From the NCBI GenBank assembly GCA_029204225.1, contig CM055111.1, forward strand, positions 21,975,805-22,039,804: a stretch of 64,000 bases of DNA, in the 5' to 3' direction. How positions within the stretch are numbered: position 1 is the stretch's first letter; each line of letters opens with the position of its first letter. Made by a program: the position numbers and the translations under genes. Under the pieces are notes generated by a model. It was not told the origin of the DNA. It ran no database searches and worked only from the letters and a program-made list of their open reading frames with translations. Of the stretch, positions 1 to 64,000 are shown piece after piece. The DNA is from Diphasiastrum complanatum (Eukaryota; Streptophyta; Lycopodiopsida; Lycopodiales; Lycopodiaceae).

Positions 1-595
1 CCCTGATCTTTGGTTACAATAAACCAACAATCCTGCCAATGTAGAAAAATCAGCATCTACATACAAAATGAGATGCAAAGTCTAAGAGATACTGATCAAA
101 CATGAATCAAAATATAAAATATAGCTTTTGCTCGTACAATTATAGTACCCTACTGTAATTATAGTACCCTATTTTATTTAACATGTGTGAAATCGAAAAT
201 AGCAATAAAAGATCATTCTACAAATAGAATTGCAAGATAACATGAGAGTGCACCAATGAGTAGTAGAACCCAAAGAGGACCATGTATAATGATGGAATGA
301 GAGAGAGAAGAGAGAATATGCGTCTCTCCATGAGTTACATCCTTTATAGAGTGTCCAAACCCTATTTGGCCACTTGGCTTTCCCTCCAAAATGTAAACCC
401 TACTATTTCTGGGACTAGATTCAATGTACCCAAAGTTCAAATTTGAATCTCTCCCAAACTTGACTACCAACTTTCCCACACTTTCAAAAAGTGTTTATTG
501 AATGTATTTTAAACTAATATAACTTCAAAAAGTTTAATCTCTAAGTCTAAAATGAGTTTTGGCCTCATATTAGTTAATAAGACACAATTGAAAAC
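1..595 (-). repeat. LTR-derived segment at the R0/core 1 boundary
   Basis: Bases 1-500 are the inverted copy of 10241-10740 and form the tail of the right arm of a palindrome lying mostly left of the window. On the minus strand it looks like an LTR: a promoter-like cactctataaagg (RC near 340-352), then a stretch ending gatttttctaca (RC near 35-47), a typical LTR-style CA end. A repeated tagtaccct-type motif lies at about 145-175. The minus-strand open frame at 213-479 is probably an LTR shadow, not a gene. The LTR similarity extends to about 595. Confidence 0.6.
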
Positions 596-889
596 ACCCG
601 ACCAAATCAATCACCACAGCACAACGTCAAGTGCAACAAGAACACAGAATTGCTCTCTTCAAACTGTATATTCCACTCTCTTCGTAAGTACAAAGATGAG
701 TTCCTTAAAAAACACTCAAAGGGCTCGTAAAAGCAAGATGGCCCGATAACTCTAGAACTAAGAAAGCACTGTATAAGTCGATCATTGCTATTTTAACTCT
801 CTCCCTCAATGATCAATGTCACTTCTTATTTTAGAGTATACTCTATTCATGGAACATAACTCCATGATAGCATTACATGCAAAGGCTTT
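596..889. other. Copia-F 3' flank, no gene
   Basis: About 300 AT-rich bases downstream (minus-strand sense) of the RNase H fragment. The minus strand carries a purine-rich tract, gagggagagagtt, near 797-811 that could be the polypurine tract next to a 3' LTR. A 65-codon plus-strand frame at 552-749 is preserved in all three units but has no recognisable motif, so I do not call it a gene. Confidence 0.4.
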
Positions 890-1249
890 TTACATGACCT
901 GGCCTAAGCCAAGTTTGGCTCTAAAAGTTTCAAACTTTTCTTTACTTAAAGCTTTTGTAATTATATCAGCAACTTGTAACAACGTAGAACAATGTTCAAT
1001 TCCTATGTCTTCAGATTGTAATTTTTCACGCACAAAGTGATATTTTACTTCAATATGTTTTGTCCTTGCGTGAAAGATTGGATTTTTAGCCAATTGTATT
1101 CCACTTTGACTGTCACAAAAAATAATAGTGGGATTTACTTGTTTCATGCCAATCTCACATAGCAACTTACGTAGCCAAATAGCTTTCTGGGTAGAAAATA
1201 GAAGGGTTTTCTGAAGATCAGTTGTCATATTGCCATATTTTTGCCACAA
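890..1249 (-). pseudogene. Copia-F: Ty1/copia RNase H C-terminal fragment (unit 1)
   Basis: The 3' end of a Ty1/copia pol gene. Visible motifs are AIWLRKLLCEIG, FCDSQSGIQLAKNP, FHARTKHIEVKYHFVRE and ADIITKALSKEKFE, which form the RNase H core and the C-terminal tail of copia polyproteins. The intact enzyme degrades the RNA strand of the RNA-DNA hybrid during element replication. The frame is open for about 119 codons to the natural stop, but there is no RT upstream: homology ends near 1250, where a different, TTCGCC-rich sequence begins. It is therefore a 5'-truncated relic. The polarity is opposite to the Copia-D element in the same core, and the sequence is clearly a different copia lineage. 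Confidence 0.85.
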
Positions 1250-1875
1250 AAGTCAATTTTTTGCAAAAAAATTTGCAAAAATACCAGTATTACTCTTGAT
1301 TCTTCGCCAAAACCTTCGTTGAGTTTCCAAAACATTCTATTTATAGTAAACTACTATTTTTGAGTTCGGCGAAGATTCTTCTTCTCCAGATCGTAGAAAA
1401 TCTTGATTTTTACCCTCGCCAAACTACAGAAACTGTATTTTCTTGTGTCAGAAACCTTCATCCGATTTTCCATTGTTTTATCTGTGTCAGATCTTGCATC
1501 TGAGAGGTCGGCGAAGGTTATTTCTATAGAAATTGTCAAAAAATTTGATTAGAGATTTTTTTCTCAAAACAGCATTGTTGAACCTTCGTCGAGCCAATCT
1601 TCACTTAGGGAACCTTCGCCAGTACTATTTTTAAGTTTAGACTTTCCAGATCAAGTCTCTATCAAAATTTAGGTCAAATCTAATACATTCTTATTTGGAT
1701 TCTGAGAAATTTTTCATTTTTTGAGAAGTATCAATTGATTGAATTTCGAAATCTTTTTCACGATATAGAGTCAGATTCTTGAAACTAGAATATATCTAGC
1801 AGCTTTGATCTGAGAAAGTTTTGATTGAAAAATCTAGATCCAATTTCATTGTGTGCTTGATTTGAATTTGTTAAA
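1250..1875. other. Leader or LTR region with repeated TTCGCC motif
   Basis: No gene. The segment precedes the gag start at 1876 and carries at least six scattered copies of a ctTCGCC/GGCGAag or TTCGtcGA-type motif (about 1300, 1313, 1366, 1424, 1507, 1582 and 1613) in both orientations. By position it could be the LTR or untranslated leader of the gag-bearing element. I see no clear tRNA primer-binding site. Confidence 0.4.
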
Positions 1876-2338
1876 ATGGCTGTCTTTGGAGCTGCTCCTG
1901 GAAGTGCTCCTCAGGAAGTCAATCCAATTATTGTTAGAAGAGCACCCCGTTTGGATCTACCCAAATATAATGGATTAACAGATCCAGTTAGATTTCTTCA
2001 AATCTATGCTGAATCCTGTGAAGTCTGGAGAGAGTTTTTCCCCAAGATAAACTTATGTTGTTTCCTATGGCCTTAACAGGCGCAACACAAGATTGATACT
2101 ATAATCAAGATGAAACTGAGCGTACAGATTGGGAGGTTGTTAAAAGAGCCCTTATCACACGATTCAAACCTCGAAAGTTTATGGAAGACCCCTTCCTACT
2201 TTTAAGTAAAATTAAAATGGGAAAGCAGAAAATGGTTCGAGATTACATTGAAAGGGTGAAACACCTCAGATCTGAGTGCAAACCTGAGCTGATTAACAAA
2301 AATGCCATGACTATGTGATTTTTGTCAGGTCTACCTAA
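1876..2338 (+). pseudogene. Gypsy-like retrotransposon gag fragment (unit 1)
   Basis: It starts with ATG at 1876. The first frame contains LPKYNGLTDPVRFLQIYAE; after a two-base deletion near 2027 (unit 2 has gaagtctatgg, unit 1 gaagtctgg) homology continues in other frames: DETERTDWE, KRALITRFKPRKF, KMVRDYIERVKHLRSEC and FLSGLPKW. This pattern matches the Retrotrans_gag capsid domain found mainly in Ty3/gypsy elements; it differs from the copia UBN2-type gag elsewhere in the window. The fragment ends at 2338, where unit 1 has lost bases that unit 2 retains. No zinc knuckle, protease or pol follows. Calling it gypsy-like rests on gag alone. Confidence 0.7.
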
Positions 2339-3019
2339 ATGGATTTTTTAGTAAGAGGTCAAAATGTTATCATATCCGATGACGATTTTGTCTCCGTTTT
2401 GCTCAAATATGACAAAATTCACCGATTTTTGTTGTTTTCTCTGATTTCTCAAATCCAAATGGATCTTAAGAATGGTGATCTGAATAGCTTTCCTTGCTCA
2501 ACAATCAGATTAGATTTTAAACAAGATTATCCATCAAATCAAGCAAAATCACTCTCAATCTAACCCTAAAATGCAATTTTAGCCATACTTATGCCAAAAC
2601 AAGATGCCTAATGCAAACTAACATCCGTCAAAACATGATGTAAACTAATAAACTGGCGTAGCTCTCCGGAAACGGCGCCAAAATTGTTGTGGAGCTATTT
2701 CCTACCCTAGCCTCAACCCAAGATCCAAGCACACAAGCATCAAGGAGATGAGGTTAGATGTCATGCGGAGGTTCAATCCCATGAGAGCGATAGCATAGAA
2801 CAAAATCCAGCATGTACTGATGATCCACAATTAACACTAAGATCCATTAACACTAGCATTAGTCCTATAACCATTAGCACTAAATCCAATGATAGCGTAC
2901 TCCTCTCTCTCCCTTTCTCTCTCACAAAAAGCATAAGAATTAGAAAATCCAACAATAATCATTCATCGGGTTGGACTTACAGACGCAGGGTGCCAAATCC
3001 CTCTCACTTACTAACTAGG
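2339..3019. other. Non-coding segment with deletion scar
   Basis: No recognisable gene. A junction near 2352 marks loss of about 356 bases relative to unit 2 (33278-33635). Bases 2700-2800 carry one half of an inverted repeat (cctagcctcaa ... atcaaggagatgag ... tgagagcgatag) whose other half exists only in unit 2. A minus-strand open frame at 2773-2955 is low complexity and unassigned. Confidence 0.5.
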
Positions 3020-4693
3020 GTTAGAGTTGTCTCGATATCCACAAACCCTCCAACAGAGGCCGAATGTCAACTTTCTTAAAACTTTTGGATGTACTTGCTA
3101 TGTCAATATAACTCTTGATGATAGGACAAAGGAGGATCCATCTTCAAGGAAAGGTATATTTGTTGGATATAGTGAGGTGAGTAAAGCCTACAAGGTTTAT
3201 ATTCCTACTACTAATAAGGTGATTATTGGTAGAGATGTTATTTTTGATGAGGGGAATTTTCCAAAGGTGTCTTCAAGTGATGATGGTGTGGATGGATCTA
3301 ACAATCTTGATGTTGTTGTGATGGATCCTACTTTAGATGGTGATGATGAAGGACCTTCATCAAGTCAAAAGCCAAGGAGAACATCAAGGGAAAGACAAAC
3401 GCCTTCAAGGCTCACATATGATGAGAAATGTAAGCAAGTTGTTGGAGGTACAGACTTTGTTGTCCTAATTTCTTTTGATGAACCTACTTGTGTAGATGAA
3501 GAAAGGAACAAAGAGGAGTGGATCCAAGCAATAGATCTTGAGTATCAAGCCCTTATGAAGAATGGAACATGGATATTGGTGGAGTCACCTAAGGACAAGA
3601 AAGCTATTGGATGTAAATGGATATTCAAGGTGAAGACAATCAATAAGGTTGGTGGCAAAAGGACATGCTCAAGAACATGGTATTGACTATGACGAAACCT
3701 TTGCACCTATGGCAAATATGGTAAGCATTCGGGCCAATCTCTCTTGCTACTCTTTATGGATGAGATCTATGGCAATTGGATATTACAAATTCTTTTTTGA
3801 ATGGTGATCTTGAGGAGGAAGTGTACATGGAGCAACCTGAGAGCTACATTTGACCTAAAAAGCCAAATCATGTGTGTCTTCTACAAAAGAGTTTGTATGG
3901 CCTTAAGCAAGCACCAAGGAGTTGGTATGCTAGGCTTAACACTTTTTTACTCTCTCAAGGCTTTGTTATGAGTGAGTATGATCATTCACTTTATTATAGG
4001 TTTTCTGAAAATGATATTACCATTTTGCTAATCTATGTGGATGATATCATCTTGAGTGGTGGAGACAACCAAGATGTGGAGTATATCAAGAGTGCTCTCA
4101 AGAAGGAGTTTGAAGTGCATGATCTTGGTCATTTGCATTACATTTTAGGAATAGAAGAGATTATATCTTCTCAAACTACTTTCATTTGTCAAGAGAATTA
4201 TGCTAATTCTATTCTATAGAGATTTCATATGGTAGATGCAAAGTCTTGTGATATACCTATGGAGTCAAATGTAAAGCTAACTATAAGGGGTAATGAAAGA
4301 TCCTTCAAGGACATTACCCTCTATAGAAAGCTAGTTGGTTCACTTATCTGTCTAACCATCACAAGACCAGATCTAAGATATTGTGTTGGTGGATTAAGCT
4401 AATGTATGCAAGATCCTAGTGAAGAGCATTGGAAGCTAGGGAAACGAGTTTTGACATACATCATGGGAACTCGAGATTTTGGCATATTGTATGAGGGATC
4501 ATCACCTAACTTGTTTGGATTTTCACATTCAAACTTTGTTGGGAGAAAAAATGGATAGGAAAACCATAAGTACTCATTGTATTTTCATATGTGATGGAGC
4601 TATATCATGGATGTCAAAGAAACAAGCCACTATCTCATTGTCATCTACTAAGGCTGAATACAAAGCGCTTACAGAACATGAGTGTCAAACTTG
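3020..4693 (+). pseudogene. Copia-D: integrase C-term, reverse transcriptase and RNase H relic (unit 1)
   Basis: A 5'-truncated Ty1/copia pol. Domains in order: integrase C-terminal region (FGCTCYVNI, then RKGIFVGYSEVSKAYKVY and GRDVIFDEG, about 3080-3270), an acidic Ser-rich linker, RT N-terminus (EEWIQAIDLEYQALMKNGTW, IGCKWIFKVK, about 3510-3635), a frame break near 3650, [21 protein letters not shown] (about 3775-3840), an in-frame stop at 3852, then SLYGLKQAPRSWYARL and the catalytic YVDDI (about 4035-4050). After a stop at 4217, RNase H pieces end with AISWMSKKQATISLSSTKAEY (about 4598-4660). Several stops and frame changes make it non-functional. Homology ends at about 4693, where it abuts the opposite-facing Copia-E protease. 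The integrase C-terminus closely resembles Copia-B in the arms, so both belong to one lineage. Confidence 0.9.
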
Positions 4694-4725
4694 ATCCTTG
4701 ATTCCTCTCTGATTCCTTTCCAATC

Positions 4726-5900
4726 CTAAATAACAACACAATCAAGATTACTTATGCAAGACTCCCCCTTAGTGAATGAATCATAAAAGATAAAAGACTC
4801 ATCTTCTTGACTATCTTGCCTTAGCAAGCACCTCAATTCTATCCAACATTTAATCACTTGATCTACCTTTTTTATTAAACCATGTGATATTACTTGCTCT
4901 CTCTTCTTTATGTAACAAGCATCTCCATCAAACGCTACTTCATGTCCATTGTCAATTCTCCCAACACTAGGATGAATCTTTGAAAGTGAAGGAATGAACA
5001 ACACATTTTCATGTATTTGAGAGAGTAAGAGAAAGAGACAATACCTTAATAAAATACTAACCATCATTTGCCATGTAGATCACTTGCTTGACTCAGTCAT
5101 AAGTGACTAAGGAAGAAAAGAATTTCTTATGACTAGTCATATGAGAACTAGCTCCACTATCGATCTACCATGACTCTTTGTCACTTTCACTTGAGATGAG
5201 ACTTGAAGACATCATAAGAGTATCAACAACATCATTACTAACAAATTCACAATTGGTAAATTTTCTTTGCTTGCTACCTTCCAATTGCTCTCTTGTCATT
5301 TTATTGCACTCATAAGAAAAGGACATTTTCTGCCACAATAAAAGCACTTGAGTTCAGATTTATCATTCTTACCACCATAAGAGGATGTTGCCTCACCTTG
5401 CCCTTGATCCATGGTGCTCTTCTTGTTGGAGTTCCACTTGACTCCTCCTTTTCCCTTGCCTTTCGTGAAAAATACCTCTTCGTCTCCAACCTTGCTAGAA
5501 TTAGGTCTACTTCTAGTCTTAACATTGATCCTCTTTGGCACCAACACCTCTTGCAATTCTTCAATAGATGGCAAAGTTGTTAAATAGCAAAACTTTGAAC
5601 AAAATTAGCATAACCTTCTCCAAATCCATTTACAAACACTTGGACAATCTCAATGTTACCAATAGCATTGCCAACACATGCTAAGTCACCATTAAGAGAT
5701 TTAACCCTCACTACATAAGAATTAGCACTTTCACCTTCTGATAGCTTTGAAGAATTTTACTCCTTAGGGTGAGTGCCCTAGATATGATCTTTGACTCATA
5801 AATCCTTTGAAGAGTCCTCCATGCCTCGTAAGATGATGTGCAAGCCCTTACCTCATTGTGAAGCTTATTTGAGACATTCATCTTGAGGATGTGTAAAACT
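4726..5900 (-). pseudogene. Copia-E: gag-protease relic facing Copia-D (unit 1)
   Basis: Read on the minus strand from about 5900: UBN2-type gag (SSYEAWRTLQRIYESK, frame change, GDLACVGNAIGNIEIVQVF and ANFVQSFAI, then SIEELQEVLVPK); a zinc knuckle CFYCGRK near 5335, broken by a frame change that continues as FSYECNKM (the usual knuckle His is not seen); then a retroviral-type protease start (stop codon just before an ID-SGASSH-like stretch near 5150) and NVLFIPSLSK plus RIDNGHEVAFDGDACYIKK (about 4995-4895). Multiple frame shifts make it a relic. The gag is a diverged relative of Copia-A gag in the arms. It ends about 30 bases from the end of Copia-D on the other strand, a convergent pair of half-elements. 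Confidence 0.8.
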
Positions 5901-6218
5901 ACTTGGCCTTCATTGGAACTAGCATGTACTTTGCAACAAGCTTTGTAGTAGTGCCGCCTCTAGTAAGGACGACAATCAAAGATTCTCGTACTTTATTAGC
6001 AGTTCACACAACCAATGATGCAAGGCTTTTTAATGGGCTCCTTGGAAGCGGCGTTTACTTCACGATTTCTTTGAATGTTGCAGCATGATCTAGAGATAAT
6101 TTTTCCTCGATGCAAACGTGAGCTATGTTTTTGACCACCAACTTTGGATATGCTCCAGCTGTAGTTGCACCACCAGCTCCATCCAGTTGTTGACATTTCT
6201 TTACGCTTCACCCTTAGA
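5901..6218. other. Unassigned segment between Copia-E and the microsatellite
   Basis: On the minus strand short coding-like stretches are visible (for example IAHVCIEEKLSLDHAATF and ASKEPIKKPCIIGC, about 6130-6000), but I do not recognise them and they break frame. This could be the extreme 5' part of Copia-E gag or captured host sequence. The segment is conserved in unit 2 (37191-37509). Confidence 0.3.

Positions 6219-6290
<72 letters not shown>
6219..6290 (+). repeat. Compound microsatellite (TG)12(AG)24
   Basis: Perfect TG tract 6219-6242 followed directly by a perfect AG tract 6243-6290. Unit 2 has (TG)20(AG)24 at the same place. Apparent long open frames here are artefacts of the repeat. 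Confidence 0.95.
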
Positions 6291-6292
<2 letters not shown>

Positions 6293-7690
6293 CGTGTACT
6301 GGTACAAATACCTTAAAATGAAGCATGAAGGGAGGGTCAGTTTCAATTTCGCTTTTCACAATCTATCCATTCATGCGTTGACTAAAACTTTTGCTTTTGC
6401 TTATGGTTCATGCAAACAAAAATAGCTTTTGCAATCCTTATGGCTCATGCATTGTTTGTGTGACTTCGTTCTAATTTTTATATGGCAATACTAGATGCAT
6501 GTTTCTTTAGCACTCAACAAAGGTTTTACCCTCAAAAATTAAGGCCACCATCACATAATATCCGTTATACCTTTTTTCAAAACTCCATTGAGTGACCTCA
6601 AGGCCAAAAACACCAATTTGCTATAACAGCAAAAACATAAAAAGGAGCTTTATGCGGGTACAGTCCCCGCTCGAGTTCAAAGGAGGTTCCCGCTCGTTTT
6701 ACTTTAAACCTAAAAGAAATGCTAGATATTTTTACTATATTTATGGGTGTGCATTCCATACTTGCTGTTACTTGTCATTTTCTTCTGTTTCTGCGAAGAT
6801 ATCCCCAGCACGGCAGCGATCGAACAAACGAGTCGCTTGAAGCAAGTTCCCACCACGTCTCCATCTTGCAAATCGTGGCGGTGGCAGCGCGCACATGTTA
6901 GCTAGCTCCTTGACGGCTCGCTACGATCATCGTCATCTAATTCTTCTTCTTCGTTTTTGAGTGATCAGCTGCAAGTATGTATCAACCCATATCTCATTTT
7001 CATGTTACGGTGTAATATTTGGATTTCGAGTATTGTTGTAGTCATGCATTGAGTTCCATTATCAACTTGAGGTCGTGTAGCTTGGGATGTTCCTCTTTCT
7101 TTTCAGTTGTCTTTGCAGGTTTTTCGGCTCCGTCTGGTTGCTTCTATCTCATGCTTTCCTCCTTTCGAATGATGTGCATAAAGCATACTAATACGTACTA
7201 GTACACACAGTATGATAGAGTTATATTACACTGTATGTGCTTTTTTATTCGCTCGTCGACCCTGTCTGCTTGTTTTCGTTGACACTTGATGACGAAAACA
7301 GTGCCTTTATTGTCCTGCCATTCACCCCTTGCACTGCCTGAGGATATCTTTGCTCAATCGCTTATCATCTCTGCCTGCATTTGGATAGAGTATCTGAAGC
7401 ATAGTCCTTATTTCAAGATTTCATTTCTGGTTATTGATGTACGAATTCTGATATCTATCTTCCTTGCTTTTCCAGCATAGTGGGTATCAGCATTCAGTAA
7501 TTCGCTGGCTTATACTTGAGCCGATTCTTTCATGTTTTTGGCAAAGCATAGCTCATGTTTTACGACTACTTTTTATAACTCAATGCAACAAGTACTTGAT
7601 CTGAAATATACTATTCAAATGTTTATGTGAAGCCAAATGCGAAAGTAGAGCTAAGCAAGTATAAAATTGGATTGCAGCTGCAAGAAAAAT
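6291..7690 (+). promoter_or_regulatory. 5' flank and presumed promoter/leader of the aspartic protease gene
   Basis: This 1.4 kb has no protein-coding homology, is richer in GC than the surrounding retroelement DNA around 6780-6930, and is nearly identical in unit 2 apart from a seven-base deletion there (atacgta, near 7190). A donor-like aagtatgt near 6972 followed by the acceptor-like tttgcagg near 7115 would allow a 5'-UTR intron, but this is unproven. A tataaaa at 7660 lies only 30 bases before the ATG, too close to be the core promoter. The transcription start cannot be placed by eye. Confidence 0.35.
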
Positions 7691-9344
7691 ATGGCTTCCG
7701 TTCTGAGAACCACGAACAGAAGGTTCAACTTTGTTATTCATTTCATTCTTTCGGCCGCCATTACCTTCGACCTTTCGGGTGCCACAACATCTTTCTCTCA
7801 CACAAGCCAACGATCATCCATTCCCGACGGGTTTCAGCGCCCAGATTATGTCTCAGATTCTTGGGACCAAACAGCAATTCTTCCAGCCAATTCGCCGAAA
7901 ATTCTCGAAGGGCAATTGTTGGAAACAGGTATAAGGGAGACGGAGCTGCAGGGAGGAGCAAATGAAATTAGAACAGGAATACCCTTGAAGCTAGTCCACC
8001 GAACTTCTCTGCTGTCTCCACAGTCCAGGACTGAATCTGTTAAAATCAGCATTCTTAAAGAGTTGCTGGAGTTAGATACTGTCAGATTGAGAGGATACAA
8101 GCTCAGCTCATGGATTACTGGGATCCCCCAGAGTGGCCACTTTGCCTCAACGAATTCAGTGAGTAGAAAACACAAAGCCGCAGATGTTGCCCACGAGAAA
8201 TTTTCATCAGAGAGCGCAAACAACAGAATTAGTTCGGGGGCAACACTAGGCTCAGGTCAGTATTTTGTAGATTTCTACATGGGAACGCCAGCGAGGAAAT
8301 ATTCCCTGATCGCGGATACTGGCAGTGATCTAATCTGGATTCAATGCTACCCTTGCAGTAAATGTTATTCGCAATCCAATCCTATCTACTATCCCAATAC
8401 TCGTCTTCTCATCAGTTTCTTGCTCTGCCAAACAGTGCTTTCTTGTTCCAGCACCACCACACGATTCCTGCAGTTCCAGGTTTCCAACAAGCTGCCAATA
8501 CACGTACGAGTACAATGATGGATCTTCTACTAGTGGCTTTCTAGCATCTGAGACGGTCACAATGATATCTAGCTCTGGCGAGCGTTTGAAGATCAGCAAC
8601 ATCACGTTTGGATGCGGCTTAAGCAATGAAGGTCAGACTCTGCACGGATCTAACGGCGTCCTTGGTCTTGGGCAGGGGCCTGTCTCTTTTGCATCTCAGT
8701 TAGGAGATCTCTACGGAAGCATATTTTCCTATTGTCTTGTGGACTATCTGAAAGCCACTACAGATACTAGTCTGCTTGTGTTTGGAGATGCCAAGATTTC
8801 GCAATCTTTGAGGAATGCTATCCAATACACTCCACTTTTGAAGAATTCATTTGCAGAAACGTATTACTATGTGGGCATCAAGCATGTTCGTTTGAATGGA
8901 CGAGTTCTGCCTATCCCTTCAAAATTATGGCAGATTGACTCTGCCGGCTATGGTGGCACCATTGTTGATTCTGGCACGACACTCACATATTTCAGAAAAG
9001 CGGCTTATTCACTTATTGTTGCTGCATTTAAACGAGCCATAACTATGCCTAGAGTAGCACCCATTCAAGGCCTTGATCTCTGCTTCAACGTTTCTGCTGA
9101 TTCTGGCATAAAAATTCCTGAATTCTCAATCCTTTTGGAAGGAGATGTCCTCTTTCAGCCCCCAGCAGAGAATTACCTTATTGACACAGCTCTTGATGTG
9201 AAGTGCATTGCAATGCAAGGAGTCGATTCACCTCTTGGATCAAACACAATAGGAAACTTGCTCCAGCAGAATTTCCATGTAGAGTATGATAGATCAAGAG
9301 CCCGACTGGGGTTTGTGTCGGCAAACTGCTCCTCATCATCGTAG
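7691..9344 (+). pseudogene. Nepenthesin-type aspartic protease, pepsin family A1, frame-broken (unit 1)
   Basis: A secreted plant aspartic endopeptidase. I chose ATG 7691 because it begins MASVLRTTNRRF followed by a hydrophobic stretch (FVIHFILSAAITF) that looks like a signal peptide. A propeptide of about 180 residues precedes the catalytic domain (SGQYFVDFYMGTPARKYSLI). The first catalytic motif DTGSDLIWIQC starts at residue 209 (8315). The Cys-rich nepenthesin insert (CYPCSKCY, then VSCSAKQC) and the flap-like YEYNDGSSTSGFLASET follow, then ITFGCG, the second catalytic motif VDSGTTLTYF (Asp codon 8967) and IGNLLQQNFHVEYD near the C-terminus. The frame changes once: the first frame (to about 8398) runs to a stop at 8516, while the family-like sequence continues from about 8403 in another frame to the stop at 9342-9344. 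No other lesion is seen. The break lies in a TCTTCTC slippage-prone tract and is shared with unit 2. It may be an old pseudogene, or the N-terminal piece alone may be translated. Confidence 0.85.
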
Positions 9345-10240
9345 CCATGATCAACCACTCCATACTTCTCAGGCATTATTTTCCAATGCATTGGGATACA
9401 CTTCAAAATTACATGAAGCTAGTTTTAGAGACACGTTTACGTTCTTTTAGAGGATGTTAACTACTGCTGAGCATGATTTGCTGGAATTGATTCATAAAGA
9501 TGCCAATAAAACTCTCAAATTACTTCCAAGCGGGAAGGTAGGAGATTCTTTCTAAGATGTTCGATTCTGAAAAAAATCTCCATGTATGTTTCCTGTATGA
9601 AGCAAGCTAGTTATCCTTTACTTCAGCTGGCTTTTGGGTCATTGACAGTTAGCTTGACTTGTGTGGTAGACGATTTGTAAGCAGTGCTTGGAAAACCTTT
9701 TGGATATTGCCTCCAAAATCTGAAGTTTTTGCAGAATTTCTAGTTTTTATCTGAACTTATTGACTTCAAGTCGTTCAGGTCGTGCAACTCATGGCTCTTT
9801 CCTTAATTCTTGAAACAAGAGAGTTTGCTATTGAATACTGCAAGAAAAAGTTTAACAAATAAAATCGAACTACCTTGGCAGCAATTCTAGCTAAATGTAA
9901 AATATAGAATGTGTGAACTCTCAAAAGTTCACAAAAACAACAAATTTCATACACCTTTCCCTTTCGCCCACTTGAGCTATGACCAATTTTCAAAATGCAT
10001 TTATACACCCTTATTCTCAATTTTTGCATGTAGCCTTTAGCCTGATATGTAGACAGTTTTAGCTTTGTCCTAATAGCAATAAGCCATTGTGAGTATTTGT
10101 TAAAAGCTGAGTTGCAGCCTCTAGGTGACACTAGCATTATAATGGGTTTCTAGGTTATATTTTTAGTCTTGAAGATCCATCACAGGTGGCAAAGTCTTTT
10201 GAATAGCAATAGTTTGAACAATGTTAGCATGAGCATCCAT
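9345..10240. other. 3' flank of protease, with an unassigned minus-strand open frame
   Basis: There is no recognisable domain. A 120-codon minus-strand frame (9775-10137) stays open in unit 2 with two amino-acid changes. It contains an acceptor-like tttcttgcag followed by tattcaat (RC near 9838), so it may be untranslated or intronic sequence rather than a gene. The region is otherwise AT-rich and ordinary. Confidence 0.35.
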
Positions 10241-11218
10241 CAATAAACACTTTTTGAAAGTGTGGAAAAGTTGGTAGTCAAGTTTGGGAGAGATTCAAAT
10301 TTGAACTCTGGGTACATTGAATCTAGTCCCAAAAATAGTAGGGTTTACATTTTGGAGGGAAAGCCAAGTGGCCAAATAGGGTTTGGACACTCTATAAAGG
10401 ATGTAACTCATGGAGAGACACATATTCTCTCTTCTCCCTCTCATTTCATCATTATACATGGTTCTCTTTGGGTTCTACTACTCATTGGTGCACTCTCATG
10501 TTATCTTGCAATTCTATGTGTAGAATGATCATTTATTGCTATTTTCGTTTTCACACATGTTAAATACAATAGGGTACTATAATTACAGTAGGGTACTGTA
10601 ATTGTATGGGCAAAAACTATATTTTATGTTTTGGTTCATGTTTGATCAGTATCTCTTAGACTTTGCATCTCATTTTGTATGTAGATGCTGATTTTTCTAC
10701 ATTGGCAGGATTGTTGGTTTATTGCAACCAAAGATCAGGGACATGGATTGTATCTTGAATGATCTGAAATCCTTGACATATTCTACACACACGATTTCAA
10801 GATATCACCAAAATAGTGCACCAATGGATAGATGAACCCAAGAGAACTCATGTATAAGCATGAAATGAGATGAGAGAGAGAGAGAGAGAGAGAGAGAGTA
10901 CTTCTCTTCCCACATGTGTATAGCTATATATAACAGGTCCATGCCTCATTAATGATCTTGGTTTTCCTCCATATCAAAAACGCTACAATTAATGTGGACT
11001 AGATTCAATGTCTCCGACATTCAAATTTGAATCTACAAAACTTGAGCTCCTACATTTTTCCTCACTTTCTAAAAGTGGTAATTCAAAAACATTTGAACTA
11101 AAATAACTTTGAAATGACTCTCTCTAAGTCTAATATGTAAATTGGCCTCAATTGCCAAATAAACAAATATGACCAAAATAGCAAACTAGTTGACAATTTC
11201 TCACATAATCCGCTAAGG
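10241..11218. repeat. Two diverged LTR segments tail-to-tail, outer end of L1
   Basis: Bases 10241-10740 read as an LTR on the plus strand (ggattcaaatttgaa-like box, ctataaagg near 10392, end tttttctaca near 10702). Bases 10741-11218 read as a related but diverged LTR on the minus strand, starting tgtgagaaattg (RC at about 11218), with gattcaaatttgaatg, tatatataac (near 10926) and a GA tract. Shared blocks include gattcaaatttgaa, cattgaatctagtcc and attggtgcact. The GA run is 10872-10898. Element ends and target-site duplications cannot be defined. Confidence 0.55.
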
Positions 11219-13090: not shown

Positions 13091-13099
13091 GTGGACGAA

Positions 13100-49790: not shown

Positions 49791-50069
49791 ATAACATAAG
49801 TCAACCAACCCCATATCCTAAATATTAAAACCCTTGCTCTATAAACCTAAACCCTTCACCCTACAACCCTTATCTTAGGGGGCAATTAATGATTAGAATA
49901 TTGATGACCCACCTCCATTGAGGATTCAGTTTGCAAAAGACTATTCGTTTGGAGTAGACGAGCTAGGACCTTCAATAGGAATAGACAACTTGAGAACTGG
50001 AAAGTTCAATAACTCGGAGAGTTTCATAGTTTGGCTATATGAGCTTTGCTCTTACCTTTGAGGTCGATA

Positions 50070-52726: not shown

Positions 52727-52727
52727 G

Positions 52728-54270: not shown

Positions 54271-54546
54271 TTATCTACCTCAAAGGTAAGAGCAAAGCTC
54301 ATATATCCAAACTATGAAACTCTCCGAGTTATTGAACTTTCCAGTTCTCAACTTGTCTATTCCTATTGAAGGTCCTAGCTCGTCTACTCCAAACGAATAG
54401 TCTTTTGCAAATTGAATCCTCAATGGAGGTGGGTCATCAATATTCCACTCATTAATTGCCCCCTAAGATAAGGGTTGTAGGGTGAAGGGTTTAGGTTTAT
54501 AGAGCAAGGGTTTTAATATTTAGGATATGGGGTTGGTTGACTTATG

Positions 54547-55543
54547 TTATACTCCTTTTCTTCTTAATGTTACATTGTTGAGTAAGGTTAAGAATGTGTC
54601 CTTTTGGAAAGTCGTATGGGAGCTAGCCCCACTATCAATCCACCAAGTGTCCTTTGAGTTGCTTTTGCTTGTTGGAGTGGATATAGATGCCATCAAAGAT
54701 GAGATCTCCTCATCTCCATCCTCTTCATATGCAAGGTTCCCTTGTTGTCCTCCTCCTCTTTTGCTCTTAGCCTCTTGTAGCATTCGGATGCATAATGCCC
54801 CTTCTTTCCACAAAAGAAGCATTTTTGTTTTGACTTGTGCTTTGAGCTTGATGCATCATCCTCTTCTTTAGCCTCCTTTGGATGCTTCTTCTTTCCATTG
54901 GTCTTCTTTTTGCCCTTGAATGAGAAATTGGCTTTCTCATCACCATCCTGCAAAGACAAGGAACTCATCCTAGATTTTGCATGGAGCATGCTACACTCTT
55001 CAGCCACTAATACACTATGAAGTTTTTCTATAGTTGGCAAAGTGTATTGGATGGCAAAACTTTGGACCAAATTTGCAAAGTCATCTCCTAGACCATTCAG
55101 GACAATCTGTACAAGCTCTCCATCATGAATCTTCTCTCCAATGGAAGCCAACTCCCTATTTAGAGACTTGTTTTCGAGTACATAATCTTGTGCACTCTCC
55201 TCACTTCTCCTCATGCTTTGCAGAATCTGATTCCTAGGCATTAGAATCCTCGAAGTGTTACTAGATTCATAGATTGATTTTAAAGTCTCCCAAGCCTCTT
55301 TAGCACTCATGCTAATACTTCTCTCAACAAATCATTCATCTTCACACAAATAAGTGCAAGCCAAGATCTCTTCTTGTATCTAGCTAACTCATGTGCACCT
55401 AGAGATTCATCTTCATCTTCAATCAAGAACTCATAAAGGTATTGGAGCACCAAAAGTGACTCCATCCTAACCTTCCAAACAGCATAATTTGTAGAATTCA
55501 ATCTCTCACTAGCTTCTAGAAGGTATGCTCCAGCAGATCCCAT
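54547..55543 (-). pseudogene. Copia-A: gag and protease start (R2)
   Basis: A 205-codon UBN2-knuckle frame (55310-54693) and WWIDSGASSH protease start. The N-terminal frame ends at a TGA at the frame junction (LREVLA, then stop), the same base change as L2. Private: Ser in EDESLGAHE and Tyr in FAIQYTLP. Confidence 0.88.
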
Positions 55544-56318
55544 CTTACTAGTGACTTCTAAAACAAGAAATAGATTTGATTGACTTGAAACTCAAAAAGG
55601 TCTCACACTTGCAATGTTTCACTCAAATTTGATTTCTAATCCAACAAATGGACTTATAATCACATTTCTATCACTCCCTCACAAAGCCGAAATGAAAATA
55701 AGATGAAGTGAAAACTCTTTTCAATCAAATTTTGCCAAGAAATGGATTTGATTGTCTCTAGAAGCTCACTAAGGTCTCTTTCTTGTAGTGTCTCACTCAA
55801 ATTAGATTCCTAATCCAACAAATGGACTTATAATATCAGTTCTAGCACTCCCTCACAAAGTTGGAATGAAGATAAGATGATGTGATCTTGCCAATTTTGG
55901 CTATTTTTGGACAATAACATGAATAACTCTCCCTCACACTTTTTAGTGTACTTTCAAGACCTGTAAAACAAGTTTAGAGGACCTGACTTCAGCCTAGATC
56001 TCATGACCCTAAGTCAAATCTAATCAATGGCACTCAATCTTGGTAGCTTATCCTAAGATTTCCACCAAAAATTACATCAAAAGCTCACAAATTGAATTTC
56101 TGTGGATCAAATGATTACCATGCATTAAATGCAGGTTCAGAGGTGCCCACACGTGGACAGTACGGATTTGGACCCCTACCAATTTTGGGATCAAATCTCC
56201 TCACCAAAATCAAAATTCTAGATTGCCCTCTCAATACTAGTTTTTAGCACCAAAACTTGCTAAAAATGGATTTGCTTTTGATAAATGGCTTATGCTCTTG
56301 TACTTGCCTCTGATACCA

Positions 56319-57003
56319 TGTGAAAGTACTATACTTTAGGACCATAAATGGATCTACAAAAGATCCACAAGAGTGTTTGGATGCTTGCTTAACAATCTAT
56401 CAAAAAACTAGACACAAAAAAAGTTGATCTAGATTGGCAATTTGACAAACAACAAGCATTAACAATCAAAAGCATTGATCAACATGGAAATACGGTCCCA
56501 CACATGTGTACTACAGGCTGTAGTACGGCCTCCAACCTAAGAAACAACCTCATAAATTGATCTGGTTTCATTTGGATCACAAAAACTCAATGTACATAGT
56601 GAACTAGCTTGAGATTGCCAATGAGCTCCAAAAATATTCTATCTTCTCACTATGGGAGCTTGGAATACATAGCAAATTCGACTTCCTTCTTGAAGTTAGG
56701 TGGATTTCCAGCATGTAATAAGGAAGTTAACTCACCCTTCTTGCCCTAAAATGAAACCTAGATCCTAGACTTATGCTTGGTAGGTAGCTAGTTGGTCAAA
56801 TTTTCACCTTAGACTTAGGTGTAGGTCCTATAAAGTAGGGATGACCACCAAATAGACATGACCAACTCTCTTGAATTGACTTAACCTACATTAGGAGTGG
56901 GTTTCCACGTGGCATCTTGGCCTTCCATGTGTGGAACCCAATTATACACAATATTTGCAAAGTTCTACATGGCTAGATTTGCCAAAATAGGCTATTTTTC
57001 ACA
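56319..57003 (-). repeat. Copia-A 5' LTR (R2)
   Basis: Inverted copy with ends TGTGAAA/TTTCACA and primer-binding site on the minus strand at 56306-56318. It differs near 56530 (caacctcataaattg) from the other arms. Confidence 0.7.
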
Positions 57004-58414
57004 AAAAACTTCAGCAAAATCACCATGCAAAAAATTTCCACAAGTATAGTACATAAAATTAGGGAAAATATTTACGCTTTTTTAAAATTTTACTCACAAA
57101 ATTGCCAAAATTTCAAACAGACATAACTTGAGCTACAATGAACCTATAAATCACAATACAAAGAGAGACCAAGTGACTGAGAAGCTTGACATGTCACCTA
57201 CGACCTCAGCTTACAGAGCCACATAAAATATGTAGTAGGACGCACTTTCAAAGAGAGGTTTCATGCAGAATCAACCAAATACCAACCTAGCACCCAAAGA
57301 GACATTACCAACAGTCTTAAAAGGTTTATTAGACTTCCGTGAAGCCTTCACTCAAATCAAGGGATGTAGTATGGGCTGAGAATGAAGATTTTTCAACTTG
57401 TGGGAGGGTGCTTTAGCGATAAACTTCATAGAGACGGAACACAAGCCTCTGATCACCAATTTACAGGCCTGATAGCTTGTTGGGATGGCCAGGAGGAGTA
57501 TAAATAAAGATGGATTGACTTCATGCATGATTCTCTTGTGGATTTCTAGCCATAAATCCCCCAAGAACCCTTTCAAAAAACAATTTTTAGTCTTTTCAGG
57601 CCTTCCTACACCCTCAGTTCTCTAAAGTCTTTGCTCTAACTTCATGGACAGCTTCAAAAGATATTGATTAATCTGTGAAGAAATATGAATCATTAAAATC
57701 CAACCTAATCTCTTGTTCTTTGGTTATGGAAGACAACACAATTTACACCATTGGCAATGTAGAAAATCAACATCTACTTAATGAAAGAGATGCAAACTTA
57801 ATAAGAACTTGATCAAACAGGAGAATAGTGTCCATATTGGATGCTTCACTATTTCTTACATCAATTTTGTACATCAAGATATAACTAGAACATGAAGAAC
57901 CAAATAGAATTGAAATGAAATGATTCCACCATGCTTCCAACTCTGAACTCTTTGGAAACTAATAGCAACCAAACAATAAATGTCTGTGATGACCACTTGC
58001 TTGCTTGTCTCCTCCATCTTTGTCCTTTCTTGATATGTCTCCACCATAAAACTCCATGAATGCACCTCCATCTCCATCTTGCCAAAAGATGTCATCATCA
58101 CTTGATGACTTGATCATGAATGAGTGATACAAAAGTTTCATTTCCATCAGCAAAGCCAGCCAAGATTTCTAGTACAACTTTAACATCAATATGATGCAAA
58201 ACAATGTAGCTAGTTTCACCATATCTTGACAATTTGCACACATTCACATGAAATTGCTCATACATGAGATAGAACAAGCAAAGTAAACTTGAACAACACT
58301 TGATTGCTGCTCCTTTGAACTTACTTGAGTCTTAAAATACCTGCAAAAATAGATCCAAAACATCTTTGCCAATTGACTCTCCTTTGATGCTCTTGACAGC
58401 TCCAAATTGCCACC
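57004..58414. other. Copia-B 3' region and unassigned arm DNA (R2)
   Basis: Equivalent of 25572-26984. No gene is recognised. Confidence 0.45.
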
Positions 58415-59948
58415 TTACCTTTTGTCTTGTTGAAGCCCTTTGAGATCAACCTCTTGATCATCAACTTGACCATCAAAGTCATTGAACAAACTTTTTTTTC
58501 CAGATTCATTACTTGATGTAAAATCATGAAAATGTCCATCCACTTGCATAGCATCATCTACAAAAGAAGAATCATCAAAACATGTGAGAAAAGCAAAATG
58601 AGTCACTTCCACTTGCTTACCCTTCTCATCATATGTGAGCCTTGAAGGTGTTTGCCTTTGCCTTGATGTCCTCCTTGGCTTTTGACTTGATGAAGGTCCT
58701 TCATCATCACCATCTAAAGTAGTATCCATGTCATCACCATCGAGAATGTTAGATCCATCCACAACATCATTACTTGAAGACACCTTTGGAATGTTCCCCT
58801 CATCAAAAATGACATCTCTTTCAATAATCACCTTATTAGTACTAGGAATGTAAACCTTATAGGCTTTAGTCACCTCACTATATCCAGCAAATATACATTT
58901 CCTTGAAGATGGATCCTCCTTTGTCCTATCACATCCAAAAGTTCTAAAAAGTTTGACACTCGGCCTTTTCTTGAATAGCATCTTAAAAGGTGTTCTTCCA
59001 TCCAATATAGCACTCGGCCACCTATTGCATATAAAGTCAGCACACAAGGAAGCTTGATCCCAAAATGGTTTTGGAATATTAGCTTCTAACCTCATGGCTT
59101 TGGCGCTTTCACATAAAGTTCTATTCTTCCTCTCGGCCACTCCATTTTGTTGTCTCCTTGGAGTCTTGTGTACTCCCTCTTGATCACATGCTCATCACAA
59201 AAGGCCTTGAACTTGGTTGAGATATACTCACCACCATTGGCACTTGATCTTTGTAGAGAATTGGTTCTCTCTTGCATTCTTGAACTTGACAAAGACATCA
59301 TACACTTCATCTTTGCTCTTTAGTAGATAGATCCAACAAAATATACTAAAATCATCAATGAAAGTTACATACATCTTATCTCCACTATTGCTACTTGTAG
59401 TAATTCCCTGAATATCTGAATGTACAACTTGAAAAGTCTTTATAGATCTATTATAAGGTAGTCTACGTGACTTTGTAAAAGCACAAGACTCACAAACATG
59501 CTTGATGCTAGTTAAGGAACTTGGAAGACCAATCACAACTTGCTAGGCTAGCCATTTCCTCCAATGACTTGAAGTTGAGGTGCCCCATCCTCTTATGCCA
59601 AACTTCTTGAATAGGTAGTTGCTCACTTGCAACACATCCAACTTGGTTAGCAATAACACAAGCATCTAGTTTGAATAACTTCCCTTGTCTTTTACCTTTT
59701 GCAATCAAGACATCCTTCCTTTTAATCATACAAGTAGTTTAAATTGATCATGCTGAAATTGCAATCTTACAGTTGTGAGTACTATTGTCACCAAGATGAA
59801 CAAATTTCTTCGTGCTGCAAGGCATGTAGGAGTTGAAAAACTCACATTGATTGGTCATGTGTTGAGTTGCTCCAGAATTCAGAAACCATGAATTATCCAA
59901 AAATGCGCTTTGATCTTTAAACCATAAATGCGCCTTCGTCCACTTCAA
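58415..59948 (-). pseudogene. Copia-B: protease-integrase relic lacking RT (R2)
   Basis: Has the longest protease-start frame (59948-59748) through NSGATQHMTNQ and KKFVHLGDNSTH, again with Asn in place of the catalytic Asp. A 27-base deletion removes TCYVNIALD after FRTFGC (near 58930). Linker variants match L1 (Val in SSNDVVDG, Gln in DDQEVD). It reads FAGYSEV where the others have FARYSEV, the ancestral-looking state shared with Copia-D. Confidence 0.88.
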
Positions 59949-60965
59949 CCTGGGGAGATGATGAAACTGTGTTTCCTATGTACAATTTACATGGTAAGTT
60001 TTGATCAAGCTAGATTTTCCAATTTTTGGCAATTTCTCACAGTATACAACAATCTTTACATGTGTGGAATCATGACATACACACCTAGATGCCTTCTACA
60101 CACTAGAATCACCAATATAAAGAGAGAAGAGATAGAAAAAGAAAGTTCTCCAAACATCAAGAAAAAACTTGATTGCTTTCTCCACACTCGTACAACTATA
60201 TATTGCAGAAAATATGTCATTTGGCCACTTGCCAATTATTAGTAGTACTTTCCAAGTACTTACCAGAAACCTAGTTAATCAAGTGACTAGTTTCAATGTA
60301 TCTAGTTACGAAAAGTCATTTGGTCCAAATCCGAGCTTGACTTATCAAATAATTTTCAAAAATAGCAACATTACTATTTCTAAGAATGATTTACATAAAA
60401 AAATGTTCGTCTAAGTTTACCTCTACCTTTGTCCTCCAAGTTGCCAAATTAAACCAACTAAACTAGTTGACATTTTTCACACTCCCTCTTCCACTAGTTT
60501 TACCACACAACTTTTCAAGAATGATCTCCATTCTAAGAAAAGACCTCCTCTCAATGCTTTTGTAATGTTCAAAATAGAAACATTCATAATTGATATAGAT
60601 AATAGTGTCCAGGTTGGATGCTTCACTATTTCTTACATCCGAATATAAAGATGAAACTAGTACATGAAGAACAAAATAAAATGAAAATGTTATAATTCCT
60701 CCATGCTTCCACCTTCGATATCTCTGAAAAATAGTAGCAACCAAGTAATAAATGTGAGTGCTCAACAAATACTTGCAAGCCTTCTTCATATTTCAATTCA
60801 TGTAAAGTGTGAAAGAATCAACTAGTTTCATCATATTTACTATATTTTCATATTTGGCATATTGAGGCCAACTTTGTTTTTAGACTTAGAGATTGACTTT
60901 TCAAAGTTCATTAGTCTAAATGTCATTCGAATGAACATCCATTTCATGAAGACAACCATCCATTT
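59949..60965. repeat. LTR debris between Copia-B and Copia-B' (R2)
   Basis: Inverted equivalent of 12096-13090. A 12-base gap near 60130 (gaagagatagaaaaagaaag) relative to the other arms. No gene. Confidence 0.5.
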
Positions 60966-61358
60966 GCATACCATCATCTACACAAGAAGATGTGCCAAAA
61001 TATGTGAAAAAATAAAATTTGTACCTTCCACAACTTGCGTACCCTTTTCATCATATGTAAGCCTTGATGGCTTTGTCATTTGCCTTGAGGATATTCTTAG
61101 GACTTGAATTGGCATCTCAAAAACCACCATCCAAAAAACCATCTTCATCACCATCAAAAATATTAGATTCATCAGCATCAACAACATCAAGCTTATCCCC
61201 ATTTTTCTCTTCAAAGATAACATCCATAGAAATGTGAACTTTCTTTGAATTAGGAATGTAAAATCTATAAGCTTTTCTTACTTCACTATAGCCAAAAAAA
61301 ATCCCCTTAAAGGATTGAGTTGACATAGCAAGTACTACCAAAGGTCTTCAATGCTTGA
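60966..61358 (-). pseudogene. Copia-B': integrase C-terminal fragment (R2)
   Basis: FFGYSEVRKAYRFYIPNSKK is open (61341-61117), with Arg as in R1. Confidence 0.75.
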
Positions 61359-61810
61359 TGATTGTCTTCTTATAAAAAAGTGTTACATCCATGTCCTATA
61401 TATAGGATTTGGTATAATCCTAGACTTGGATACATGGTACTCTAGCACTTGATATTATTGGTTATGCCACATTATTAGGGAAAAGGCTAGTAATGTAATT
61501 AATAACCTTCTGAGGGCCCAAACACAATTATTGTAGCTAGTATATGGTTTAGGATTGCTAATGCATGTGTAGAGTATCAATAAAAATGGAAAGCACTTTA
61601 AGGGAGTTGGGCACATGAATAGGGAGGCTTGGGGCTTATATAAGGCTTGTAGAAACTCGCCCAATTCCATTTTTTATTTTGGTGCCTTCATTGCCAGTTT
61701 CTCTCTCTCTCTTCGACACTTGTCTCCTTTTGCAAGTTTTTTCACAACTCTGGTTACATACTGCTGTAAAACACCTAATAGACCTCCTTAGCGGACTATG
61801 TGAGAAATTG
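61359..61810. other. Non-coding arm segment (R2)
   Basis: Equivalent of 29976-30427 with R-type variants. A short deletion near 61608 (ttagatttgcat missing before gggcacatg). No gene. Confidence 0.4.
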
Positions 61811-62102
61811 TCAACTAGTTTGCTATTTTGGTCATATTTGTTTATTTGTCAATTGAGGCCAATTTACATATTAGACTTAGAGATAGTCATTTCAAAGTTA
61901 TTTTAGTTCAAATGTTTTTGAATTACCACTTTTAGAAAGTGAGGAAAAATGTAGGAGCTCAAGTTTTGTAGATTCAAATTTGAATGTCGGAGACATTGAA
62001 TCTAGTCCACATTAATTGTAGGGTTTTTGATATGGAGGAAAACCAAGATCATTAATGAGGCATGGACCTGTTATATATAGCTATACACATGTGGGAAGAG
62101 AA

Positions 62103-62149
<47 letters not shown>

Positions 62150-62870
62150 TCATTTCATGCTTATACATGAGTTCTCTTGGGTTCATCTATCCATTGGTGC
62201 ACTATTTTGGTGATATCTTGAAATCGTGTGTGTAGAATATGTCAAGGATTCCAGATCATTCAAGATACAATCCATGTCCCTGATCTTTGGTTACAATAAA
62301 CCAACAATCCTGCCAATGTAGAAAAATCAGCATCTACATACAAAATGAGATGCAAAGTCCAAGAGATACTGATCAAACATGAATCAAAACATAAAATATA
62401 GTTTTTGCCCGTACAATTACAGTACCCTACTGTAATTATAGTACCCTATTTTATTTAACATGTGTGAAACCGAAAATAGCAATAAAAGATCATTCTACAA
62501 ATAGAATTGCAAGATAACATGAGAGTGCACCAATGAGTAGTAGAACCCAAAGAGGACCATGTATAATGATTAAATGAGAGAGAGAAGAGAGAATATGCGT
62601 CTCTCCATGAGTTACATCCTTTATAGAGTGTCCAAACCCTATTTGGCCACTTGGCTTTCCCTCCAAAATGTAAACCCTACTATTTTTGGGACTAGATTCA
62701 ATGTACCCAAAGTTCAAATTTGAATCTCTCCCAAACTTGACTACCAACTTTCCCACACTTTCAAAAAGTGTTTATTGAATGTATTTTAAACTAATATAAC
62801 TTCAAAAAGTTTAATCTCTAAGTCTAAAATGAGTTTTGGCCTCATATTAGTTAAGAAGACACAATTGAAA
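61811..62870. repeat. Two diverged LTR segments tail-to-tail, R2/core 3 boundary
   Basis: Same arrangement as 30428-31529 but without the local duplication. One uninterrupted CT tract of about 41 bases (62106-62146). Confidence 0.55.
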
Positions 62871-63166
62871 ACACCCGACCAAATCAATCACCACAGCACA
62901 ACGTCAAGTGCAACAAGAACACAGAATTGCTCTCTTCAAACTGTATATTCCACTCTCTTCGTAAGTACAAAGATGAGTTCCTTAAAAAACACTCAAAGGG
63001 CTCGTAAAAGCAAGATGGCCCGATAACTCTAGAACTAAGAAAGCACTGTATAAGTCGATCATTGCTATTTTAACTCTCTCCCTCAATGATCAACGTCACT
63101 TCTTATTTTAGAGTATACTCTATTCATGGAACATACCTCCATGATAGCATTACATGTAAAGGTTTT

Positions 63167-63526
63167 TTACATGACCTGGCCTAAGCCAAGTTTGGCTCTA
63201 AAAGTTTCAAACTTTTCTTTACTTAAAGCTTTTGTAATTATATCAGCAACTTGTAACAACGTAGAACAATGTTCAATTCCTATGTCTTCAGATTGTAATT
63301 TTTCACGCACAAAGTGATATTTTACTTCAATATGTTTTGTCCTTGCGTGAAAGATTGGATTTTTAGCCAATTGTATTCCACTTTGACTGTCACAGAAAAT
63401 AACAGTGGGATTTACTTGTTTCATGCCAATCTCACATAACAACTTACGTAGCCAAATAGCTTTCTGGGTAGAAAATAGAAGGGTTTTCTGAAGATCAGTT
63501 GTCATATTGCCATATTTTTGCCACAA
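63167..63526 (-). pseudogene. Copia-F: RNase H C-terminal fragment (unit 3)
   Basis: Third copy of the 119-codon fragment, again open to the natural stop, with Val in PTVIFCDSQ as in unit 2. Confidence 0.85.
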
Positions 63527-64000
63527 AAGTCAATTTTTTGCAAAAAAATTTGCAAAAATACCAGTATTACTCTCGATTCTTCGCCAAAACCTTCGTTGAG
63601 TTTCCAAAACATTCTATTTATAGTAAACTACTATTTTTGAGTTCGACGAAGATTCTTCTTGTCCAGATCGTAGAAAATCTTGATTTTTACCCTCGCCAAA
63701 CTACAGAAACTATATTTTCTTGTGTCAGAAACCTTCATCCGATTTTCCATTGTTTTATCTGTGTCAGATCTTGCATCTGAGAGGTCGGCGAAGGTTATTT
63801 CTATAGAAATTGTCAAAAAATTTGATTAGAGATTTTTTTCTCAAAACAGCATTGTTGAACCTTCGTCGAGCCAATCTTCACTTAGGGAACCTTCGCCAGT
63901 ACTATTTTTAAGTTTAGATTTTCCAGATCAAGTCTCTATCAAAATTTAGGTCAAATCTAATACATTCTTATTTGGATTCTGAGAAATTTTTCATTTTTTG
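63527..64000. other. Start of TTCGCC-motif leader region (unit 3), cut by window end
   Basis: Copy of 1250-1730. The gag start expected next lies beyond the window. Confidence 0.4.

Follow-up and report, generated by a model that had tools for sequence, protein, structure and literature searches.

Palindromes of known systems and the clubmoss locus

Large palindromes whose arms convert each other and whose interiors flip are best known from sex chromosomes, where a common interpretation is that they compensate for the absence of crossing-over. The stretch analyzed here (the window, 64,000 nucleotides; C20:21975805-22039804 of the clubmoss Diphasiastrum complanatum, Lycopodiaceae, as placed by a search of the whole genome of 1,744,706,496 bases in 5176 contigs) contains palindromes of comparable form, repeated in tandem around a pseudogene of an A1 aspartic protease. 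With a probability of roughly 0.7, this locus is an amplicon array that arose by inverted duplication and head-to-tail amplification, with ongoing conversion between arms and between units, accompanied by spacer flips. Clubmosses of this kind are homosporous, their gametophytes are bisexual, and homosporous clubmosses are not known to have sex chromosomes. Finding such signatures next to a dead gene in this group suggests that repeat architecture by itself is enough to produce the behaviour, and five units lying side by side make conversion, spacer flips and remodelling of the palindrome centres measurable. Among the papers listed in literature searches, judged by titles and the beginnings of abstracts, none describes this locus.

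In Salix purpurea, the two adjacent W-chromosome palindromes W.P1 and W.P2 have gene-bearing arms of at least about 20 kb; the spacer of W.P1 is a few kb long, retrotransposon content is reported, and there is evidence of conversion among the arms, including a 3-kb tract without paralogous variants (PMC7023750). The clubmoss locus is similar in being a plant system of palindromes with multi-kb arms, retrotransposon content and evidence of arm conversion. On the other hand, it is an array of five regular direct tandem units in a homosporous plant, the gene lies between the palindromes and not in the arms, and its copies are dead. The first-pass annotation of the window had pointed to ampliconic sex-chromosome regions; the patterns of arm-to-arm exchange fit that comparison, whereas the setting probably does not. 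In the human Y palindrome P6, arm-to-arm conversion proceeds in multi-kb tracts and rare crossovers invert the interior, and the arms of Y palindromes are more than 99.9% similar (PMC3723533). Multi-kb conversion patterns and interior inversion are apparently shared with the clubmoss array; however, P6 is a single palindrome, whereas the clubmoss arms have a substitution identity of about 98.5% and orientation varies among the tandem units of one array.

Two herbicide-target loci are also related in form. The EPSPS array of Kochia scoparia consists of tandem units of tens of kb, some of them inverted, and is ascribed to unequal crossing-over; its gene is selected and over-expressed (PMC6808082). 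It is likewise a plant tandem array with units of tens of kb, but the clubmoss units contain pseudogenes and a palindrome in each regular unit, and no per-unit palindrome is described in the portion of the Kochia report considered here. The EPSPS cassette of Amaranthus palmeri, 297 kb long, has palindromic repeats and larger inverted blocks, and its copies are distributed genome-wide (PMC5240378). Both cases are amplified plant DNA with palindromic repeats, whereas the clubmoss arms measure 9 kb and occupy one chromosomal site.

Organization of the array and probable exchange between its repeats

By self-BLASTN and pairwise segment alignments of the window, the order R-core-L-spacer-R-core-L-spacer-R-core was obtained, in which the units start at 1, 30935 and 62278 and the arms L and R, 9.1-9.6 kb long, highly identical and inverted, flank short spacers of 2-3 kb (Table 1). 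The tandem array and giant palindromes of the first-pass annotation were thus reproduced, with coordinates correct within 1 bp, and its retrotransposon relics around a non-transposon gene are indeed copia-type relics around an A1 aspartic protease. Two refinements are necessary: the two spacers differ, and the inner ~540 bp present in L2, R1 and R2 are missing from the left arm of unit 1. Alignments of 9-17 kb at 97-98.6% in the self-comparison, including a direct match of 17 kb at 98.6%, are not chance.

The whole-genome search revealed that the array continues on both sides of the window. All probe counts are lower bounds, the best 40 candidates being scored. The unit-start probe (window 1-1000) gave 10 full-length matches and one of 954 bases, all on the plus strand at C20:21.689-22.038 Mb, the window's own three included. 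Together with the outer-arm probe (window 10240-12740), it marked a cluster at C20:21.69-22.05 Mb and one outlier at 31.51 Mb; beyond these, both probes matched solely through a dispersed piece of ~0.57 kb. The protease probe found nine near-full copies in the cluster (C20:21.70-22.05 Mb), partial fragments of which only some were inspected individually, and an 89% relative at C20:34937123, known from its probe match. The final five near-full copies are all on the plus strand, each flanked by an R end and an L start, with spacings of 29.1, 33.0, 31.3 and 31.3 kb. They define a regular part of five units, of which the window contains two whole units and the beginning of a third; in this part the spacing, annotated as ~31 kb, ranges over 29.1-33.0 kb. 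The R ends of the first two regular units are broken, and the R0 arm at the beginning of the window continues leftward at least to 21974305. To the left of the regular part, the same pieces occur in scrambled order and in both orientations, with inverted protease copies at C20:21702927 (-, near-full) and 21830859 (-, partial). The rightmost unit comprises a core (22038583-22048649), a rearranged L (22048650-22056415) and a spacer, the R arm being absent; the last array sequence lies at 22061013, with the letters followed to 22069804. Depending on the comparison, matches below 150, 250, 1500 or 3000 bp were dropped.

Comparison of the four arms in the window provides evidence on the order of events. 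Substitutions between the two arms of a palindrome amount to 132/9080 (1.45%) for L1/R1 and 140/9503 (1.47%) for L2/R2, and the crosswise values are 144/9011 (1.60%) for L1/R2 and 140/9033 (1.55%) for R1/L2. Like arms differ by 107/9050 (L1/L2) and 107/9031 (R1/R2), both 1.18%, and the inverted duplication therefore looks older than the split of the two window units. With gapped columns excluded and 185 singleton sites uninformative, 50 informative two-state sites were left, of which 37 unite L with L and R with R (LL|RR), 11 unite the arms of a unit, and 2 are crossed. These sites form 6 runs against 21.1 expected, a number as low as this in 0 of 200,000 shuffles. The runs are 28 LL|RR (10266-12481), 5 unit-type (12750-13359), 2 crossed, 4 LL|RR, 6 unit-type (16662-18372) and 5 LL|RR. 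In addition, L1 diverges from R1 and R2 by 2.2-2.5% at the outer and inner ends and by 0.7-1.5% between them, and from L2 by 0.9-1.4%. The blockwise sites and the lower mid-arm divergence appear to be the expected trace of patchy arm-to-arm conversion, as seen in the array's own arms alone.

Exchange between units is indicated by the cores. Of the 82 substitutions between cores 1 and 2, 77 are located at or left of 6704, and none between 6704 and 9592; this gap of 2888 bp compares with a maximum of 1794 bp in 100,000 uniform simulations, and the substitution-free tract includes non-coding DNA upstream of the protease. Between cores 2 and 3, 33 differences fall within 502-3044 and only 9 within 3045-10239, two of the latter at an indel edge. 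When the five regular units were compared in ten non-independent pairs, the first 1.8 kb of the core's left end differed at 385/17745 positions (2.17%) and the 1.8-kb gene segment at 38/17952 (0.21%). These sums leave out u21869 and u21811, whose core-left pieces are unalignable over their length (22-33% mismatch to the five) and whose gene segments differ from the five by 0.23-0.73%. Divergence in the protease segment is thus a tenth of that at the core's left end, which suggests conversion between units, and the variation of tract edges between unit pairs favours conversion tracts. The idea that CpG decay is mainly responsible for the divergence of the left part was rejected, CpG transitions accounting for just 10/88 variable sites.

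The spacers differ in orientation. The piece shared by both window spacers is on the plus strand at 21997088 and 22028532 (the window units) and, in part, at 21933076, but on the minus strand at 21962107 and 22056416, with the core orientation unchanged. The other orientation is thus found in 2/5 regular units, which a crossover between arms would account for. Furthermore, a fuller spacer at 21800321-21804655 contains, in order, the private sequence of spacer 2 (in part), the private sequence of spacer 1, the shared piece and arm sequence; judged by this order, the first piece was lost from window unit 1 and the second from unit 2, so that the palindrome centres were remodelled separately. A fragment resembling HSP90/endoplasmin genes (52367-52729, minus; matches to HSP90 and endoplasmin in the PDB, E about 1e-13) is located at the end of the private part of spacer 2, and it is either a captured gene piece or repair filler.

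Table 1. Features of the window, with the near-full protease copies of the cluster and their lesions (window positions, unless C20 or codons are given)
Feature	Position	Strand	Evidence or remark
R0, outer end of the preceding unit's right arm	1..501	-	96.4% inverted match to 10240-10740 and 41543-42043
Core 1, copia fragments left, protease pseudogene right	502..10239	+	82 substitutions/9731 vs core 2; Pfam SH3_retrovirus and RVT_2 at 3015-4216
Aspartic protease pseudogene copy 1 (TAXi/nepenthesin-type A1)	7691..9344	+	Pfam TAXi_N, TAXi_C; frame break
L1, left palindrome arm, copia gag and integrase-region relics	10240..19343	+	98.2% inverted match to R1; Pfam SH3_retrovirus, Retrotran_gag_2, zf-CCHC
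Spacer 1	19344..22304	+	1940 bp private, 480 bp common with spacer 2 (21284-21763), 541 bp unpaired right-arm inner end (21764-22304)
R1, right palindrome arm	22305..31435	-	self-BLASTN, segment alignments
Core 2, 353 bp extra at about 33280-33632	31436..41542	+	segment alignments
Aspartic protease pseudogene copy 2	38991..40647	+	0 substitutions vs copy 1 over 1690 aligned bases
L2, left palindrome arm	41543..51135	+	96.9% inverted match to R2, gaps counted
Spacer 2	51136..53204	+	1592 bp private, then 477 bp common with spacer 1
R2, right palindrome arm	53205..62778	-	self-BLASTN, segment alignments
Core 3 start (cut by window)	62779..64000	+	runs in the genome to C20:22048649
Near-full protease copy	C20:21702927	-	protease probe
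Near-full protease copies	C20:21769898, 21818561, 21877834, 21921337, 21950392, 21983404, 22014704, 22046015	+	protease probe
Lesion, window copy 1	codons 237-239		net -5 bp
Lesion, window copy 2	codons 237-240		net -2 bp
Lesion, copy 3, u21877 and u21818	codon 237		-10; u21818 plus two further deletions
Lesion, u21921 and u21950	codon 48		-7
Lesions, 21703 copy	codons 260 and 316		-6 and -1
21770 copy			frame uninterrupted; first DTG replaced by DTA

Gene content was sought in the arms as well. Of ten L1 open reading frames (ORFs) of at least 100 aa scanned against Pfam, five have matches to copia-type, gag or zinc-knuckle models (weak or partial ones in two cases) and five match nothing; neither a host gene nor a gene for sexual reproduction was seen among them, no intron-aware gene search having been made. 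Among the best 120 of 217 proteins matched by the integrase region, the top match has 60% identity, the highest identity is 63%, and no Diphasiastrum name occurs. The outermost ~540 bp of the arm (window 1-571, 10240-10786) are part of a ~0.6-kb repeat that is dispersed over many chromosomes with matches at 86-90%, and in the R-core direction the match extends 70 bp beyond the arm end (window 1-571). Because the match crosses the R-core join, the break is apparently on the side of L, which looks like the derived copy. Adjoining this repeat, 10780-11083 is a 69% inverted copy of 10242-10526.

Damage to the protease copies

The core gene belongs with the plant A1 aspartic proteases of TAXi/nepenthesin type, as judged from Pfam TAXi_N and TAXi_C and from PDB relatives such as EDGP. 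Its best protein match is O6H91_20G032700 of Diphasiastrum complanatum, whose residues 1-27 and 27-468 match the copy at C20:21950392 at 100%; a search with the N-terminal part matched 13 proteins. The protease-bearing core of the first-pass annotation is accordingly present, but 9/9 near-full copies are damaged: 8/9 are frameshifted, and the ninth has DTA in place of DTG, the catalytic motif, and so has lost its glycine. Lesions are common to several copies, so consensus error is unlikely to explain all of them. Where older copies differ in coding sequence, the ratio of nonsynonymous to synonymous differences (pN/pS) is 0.4-0.5, which may reflect a mix of older constraint and decay. Because an open frame and DTG occur together in none of the nine copies, the array seems to persist via recombination and not through a need for the enzyme.

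Origin of the array

Based on the results presented above, the following course of events is proposed. A block of copia relics beside the protease gene would first have been duplicated in inverted orientation, giving an arm-spacer-arm structure. The resulting core-L-spacer-R unit would later, to go by the arm divergence, have been amplified in head-to-tail order, for which unequal crossing-over involving the long direct repeats is the simplest mechanism; head-to-tail units, long direct homology (the 17-kb match) and variable length (29-33 kb spacing) were all found. Within a unit, exchange between arms may then have produced, by conversion, the blocks in which L and R agree and, by crossover, the flipped spacers. 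Units may also convert each other in multi-kb tracts, most strongly over the protease segment, and the palindrome centres would have been remodelled unit by unit.

Several observations weigh against parts of this course. The conversion between units is challenged by the protease lesions themselves: at 8398-8405 (codons 237-240), and in the same ~25-bp spot of copies 22046070, 21877834 and 21818561, three indel alleles and the undamaged form occur, and window copies 1 and 2 and copy 3 differ there with 0-2 substitutions in the surrounding 1.8 kb. Such unhomogenized alleles amid homogenized DNA are unexpected under simple conversion; the spot is either a mutational hot spot or a case of indels escaping conversion. 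The mean core-left divergence is raised by unit 21950 (2.7-3.3%), and a lower mutation rate of the CpG-rich gene segment (197/3379 CpG-member bases, versus 126/5668 in the left part) may contribute to its low divergence. The evidence for flips is limited in three units: at 21962107, arm-inner pieces lie on both sides (21962107 -, 21966681 +), but the positions come from probes only; at 22056416 the R arm is absent, the spacer orientation may thus have another source than an arm-arm crossover, and the flip is less sure; and the first regular unit has the partial spacer at 21933076 and, after its L, an additional plus-strand outer-arm copy at 21934245, so that its palindrome is not simple. L3 is rearranged, with a 517-bp core piece in place of ~2 kb of arm, the derived state of L was judged from the R-core side, and C20:21810001-21974304 was mapped by probes and short pieces only. 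The array joins rest on one assembly. To the left of the window there are 10-kb N runs at 21656507 and 21779805, and two contigs overlap head to head over 17,728 bp at 99.63% in an exact dovetail (C20:21666507-21684212 with 21789805-21807498). Finally, the palindrome and the tandem repeat may stem from one event.

This last point leads to an alternative that we consider possible but doubtful, namely that a single replication-based event (fork stalling and template switching, of the duplication-inverted-duplication type) generated both structures, with unequal crossing-over adding copies later. The order core-L-spacer-R-core-L-spacer is the expected product of two template switches, and the arm end within the dispersed ~0.6-kb repeat offers a possible switch site. 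However, the L/R divergence at the arm ends exceeds that of L1/L2, which makes the steps look separated in time, unless the units stem from one later amplification.

It is unlikely that the array is an assembly artefact, with just one R-core-L-spacer-R locus whose alleles or repeat copies were falsely chained. The N gaps and the overlapping contigs near the window would suit such an error, the latter likely reflecting a wrong scaffold orientation or two versions (a haplotig) of one stretch. So would a third version of the core-arm mosaic with protease fragments at C20:31513566-31534014, 9.5 Mb off on the same chromosome, as misplaced haplotigs would give; it is probably a misplaced contig. In view of the dovetail and this mosaic, the counts in the scrambled part are untrustworthy. 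Against an artefact, there is no N run in the window or in the 30 kb to its right, the 1.5 kb to its left align unbroken, the arms and spacers carry unit-specific indels, and all five regular units are distinct in core-left sequence. The three unit starts (1723 bp) also differ mutually, at 25, 22 and 18 positions (1.0-1.5%; 16, 18 and 11 transitions; unit 3 differs from units 1 and 2 by 22 and 18), and are therefore neither two alleles of one locus nor one re-read circle. Two candidates were rejected: an extrachromosomal circular replicon read repeatedly, given these differences and the private parts of the spacers, and a hairpin-adapter read artefact, given arms ~1.5% diverged with different indels.

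Breakage-fusion-bridge cycles, which the first-pass annotation had mentioned as a source of such palindromes, are very improbable as the origin of the palindromes and the array, and for the regular part they are disfavoured. Long inverted repeats and the inverted protease copies of the scrambled part would be consistent with them. However, alternating cores are predicted, yet 5/5 regular cores are on the plus strand, and an inverted counterpart of core 1 is missing from the window: apart from GA/CT runs, only a copia piece (321-380 bp), a single match of 151 bp and matches of 79 bp are inverted relative to it; moreover, the L and R arms appear to predate the unit split.

An alternative role, as distinct from an origin, is about equally improbable: read-through of the 9-kb arms would yield long double-stranded RNA and small interfering RNAs (siRNAs) that silence related copia elements, and conversion and flips would keep the hairpin intact. 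If true, the locus would be a clubmoss equivalent of inverted-repeat silencing loci, and its arms, rather than the dead protease, would be the reason for its retention. Likewise very improbable is maintenance by selection for more protease, as in herbicide-target amplification, for which a copy in each regular unit, the far lower divergence of its segment and the pN/pS between older copies might speak, but which the damage to every near-full copy makes unlikely and which does not agree with a uniform tract extending into non-coding upstream DNA.

Some minor features of the region may be added. The scans of the window for tRNA genes and Rfam families gave 0 matches. The 353 bp at 33280-33632 that core 2 has and core 1 lacks show a 2-bp AT match at their bounds and represent an insertion or a deletion; ~150 bp of them are a 78% inverted match to 2698-2848. 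About 2 kb past the right end of the array, a Helitron_like_N remnant is located at C20:22063016-22063600 (E 1.5e-15).

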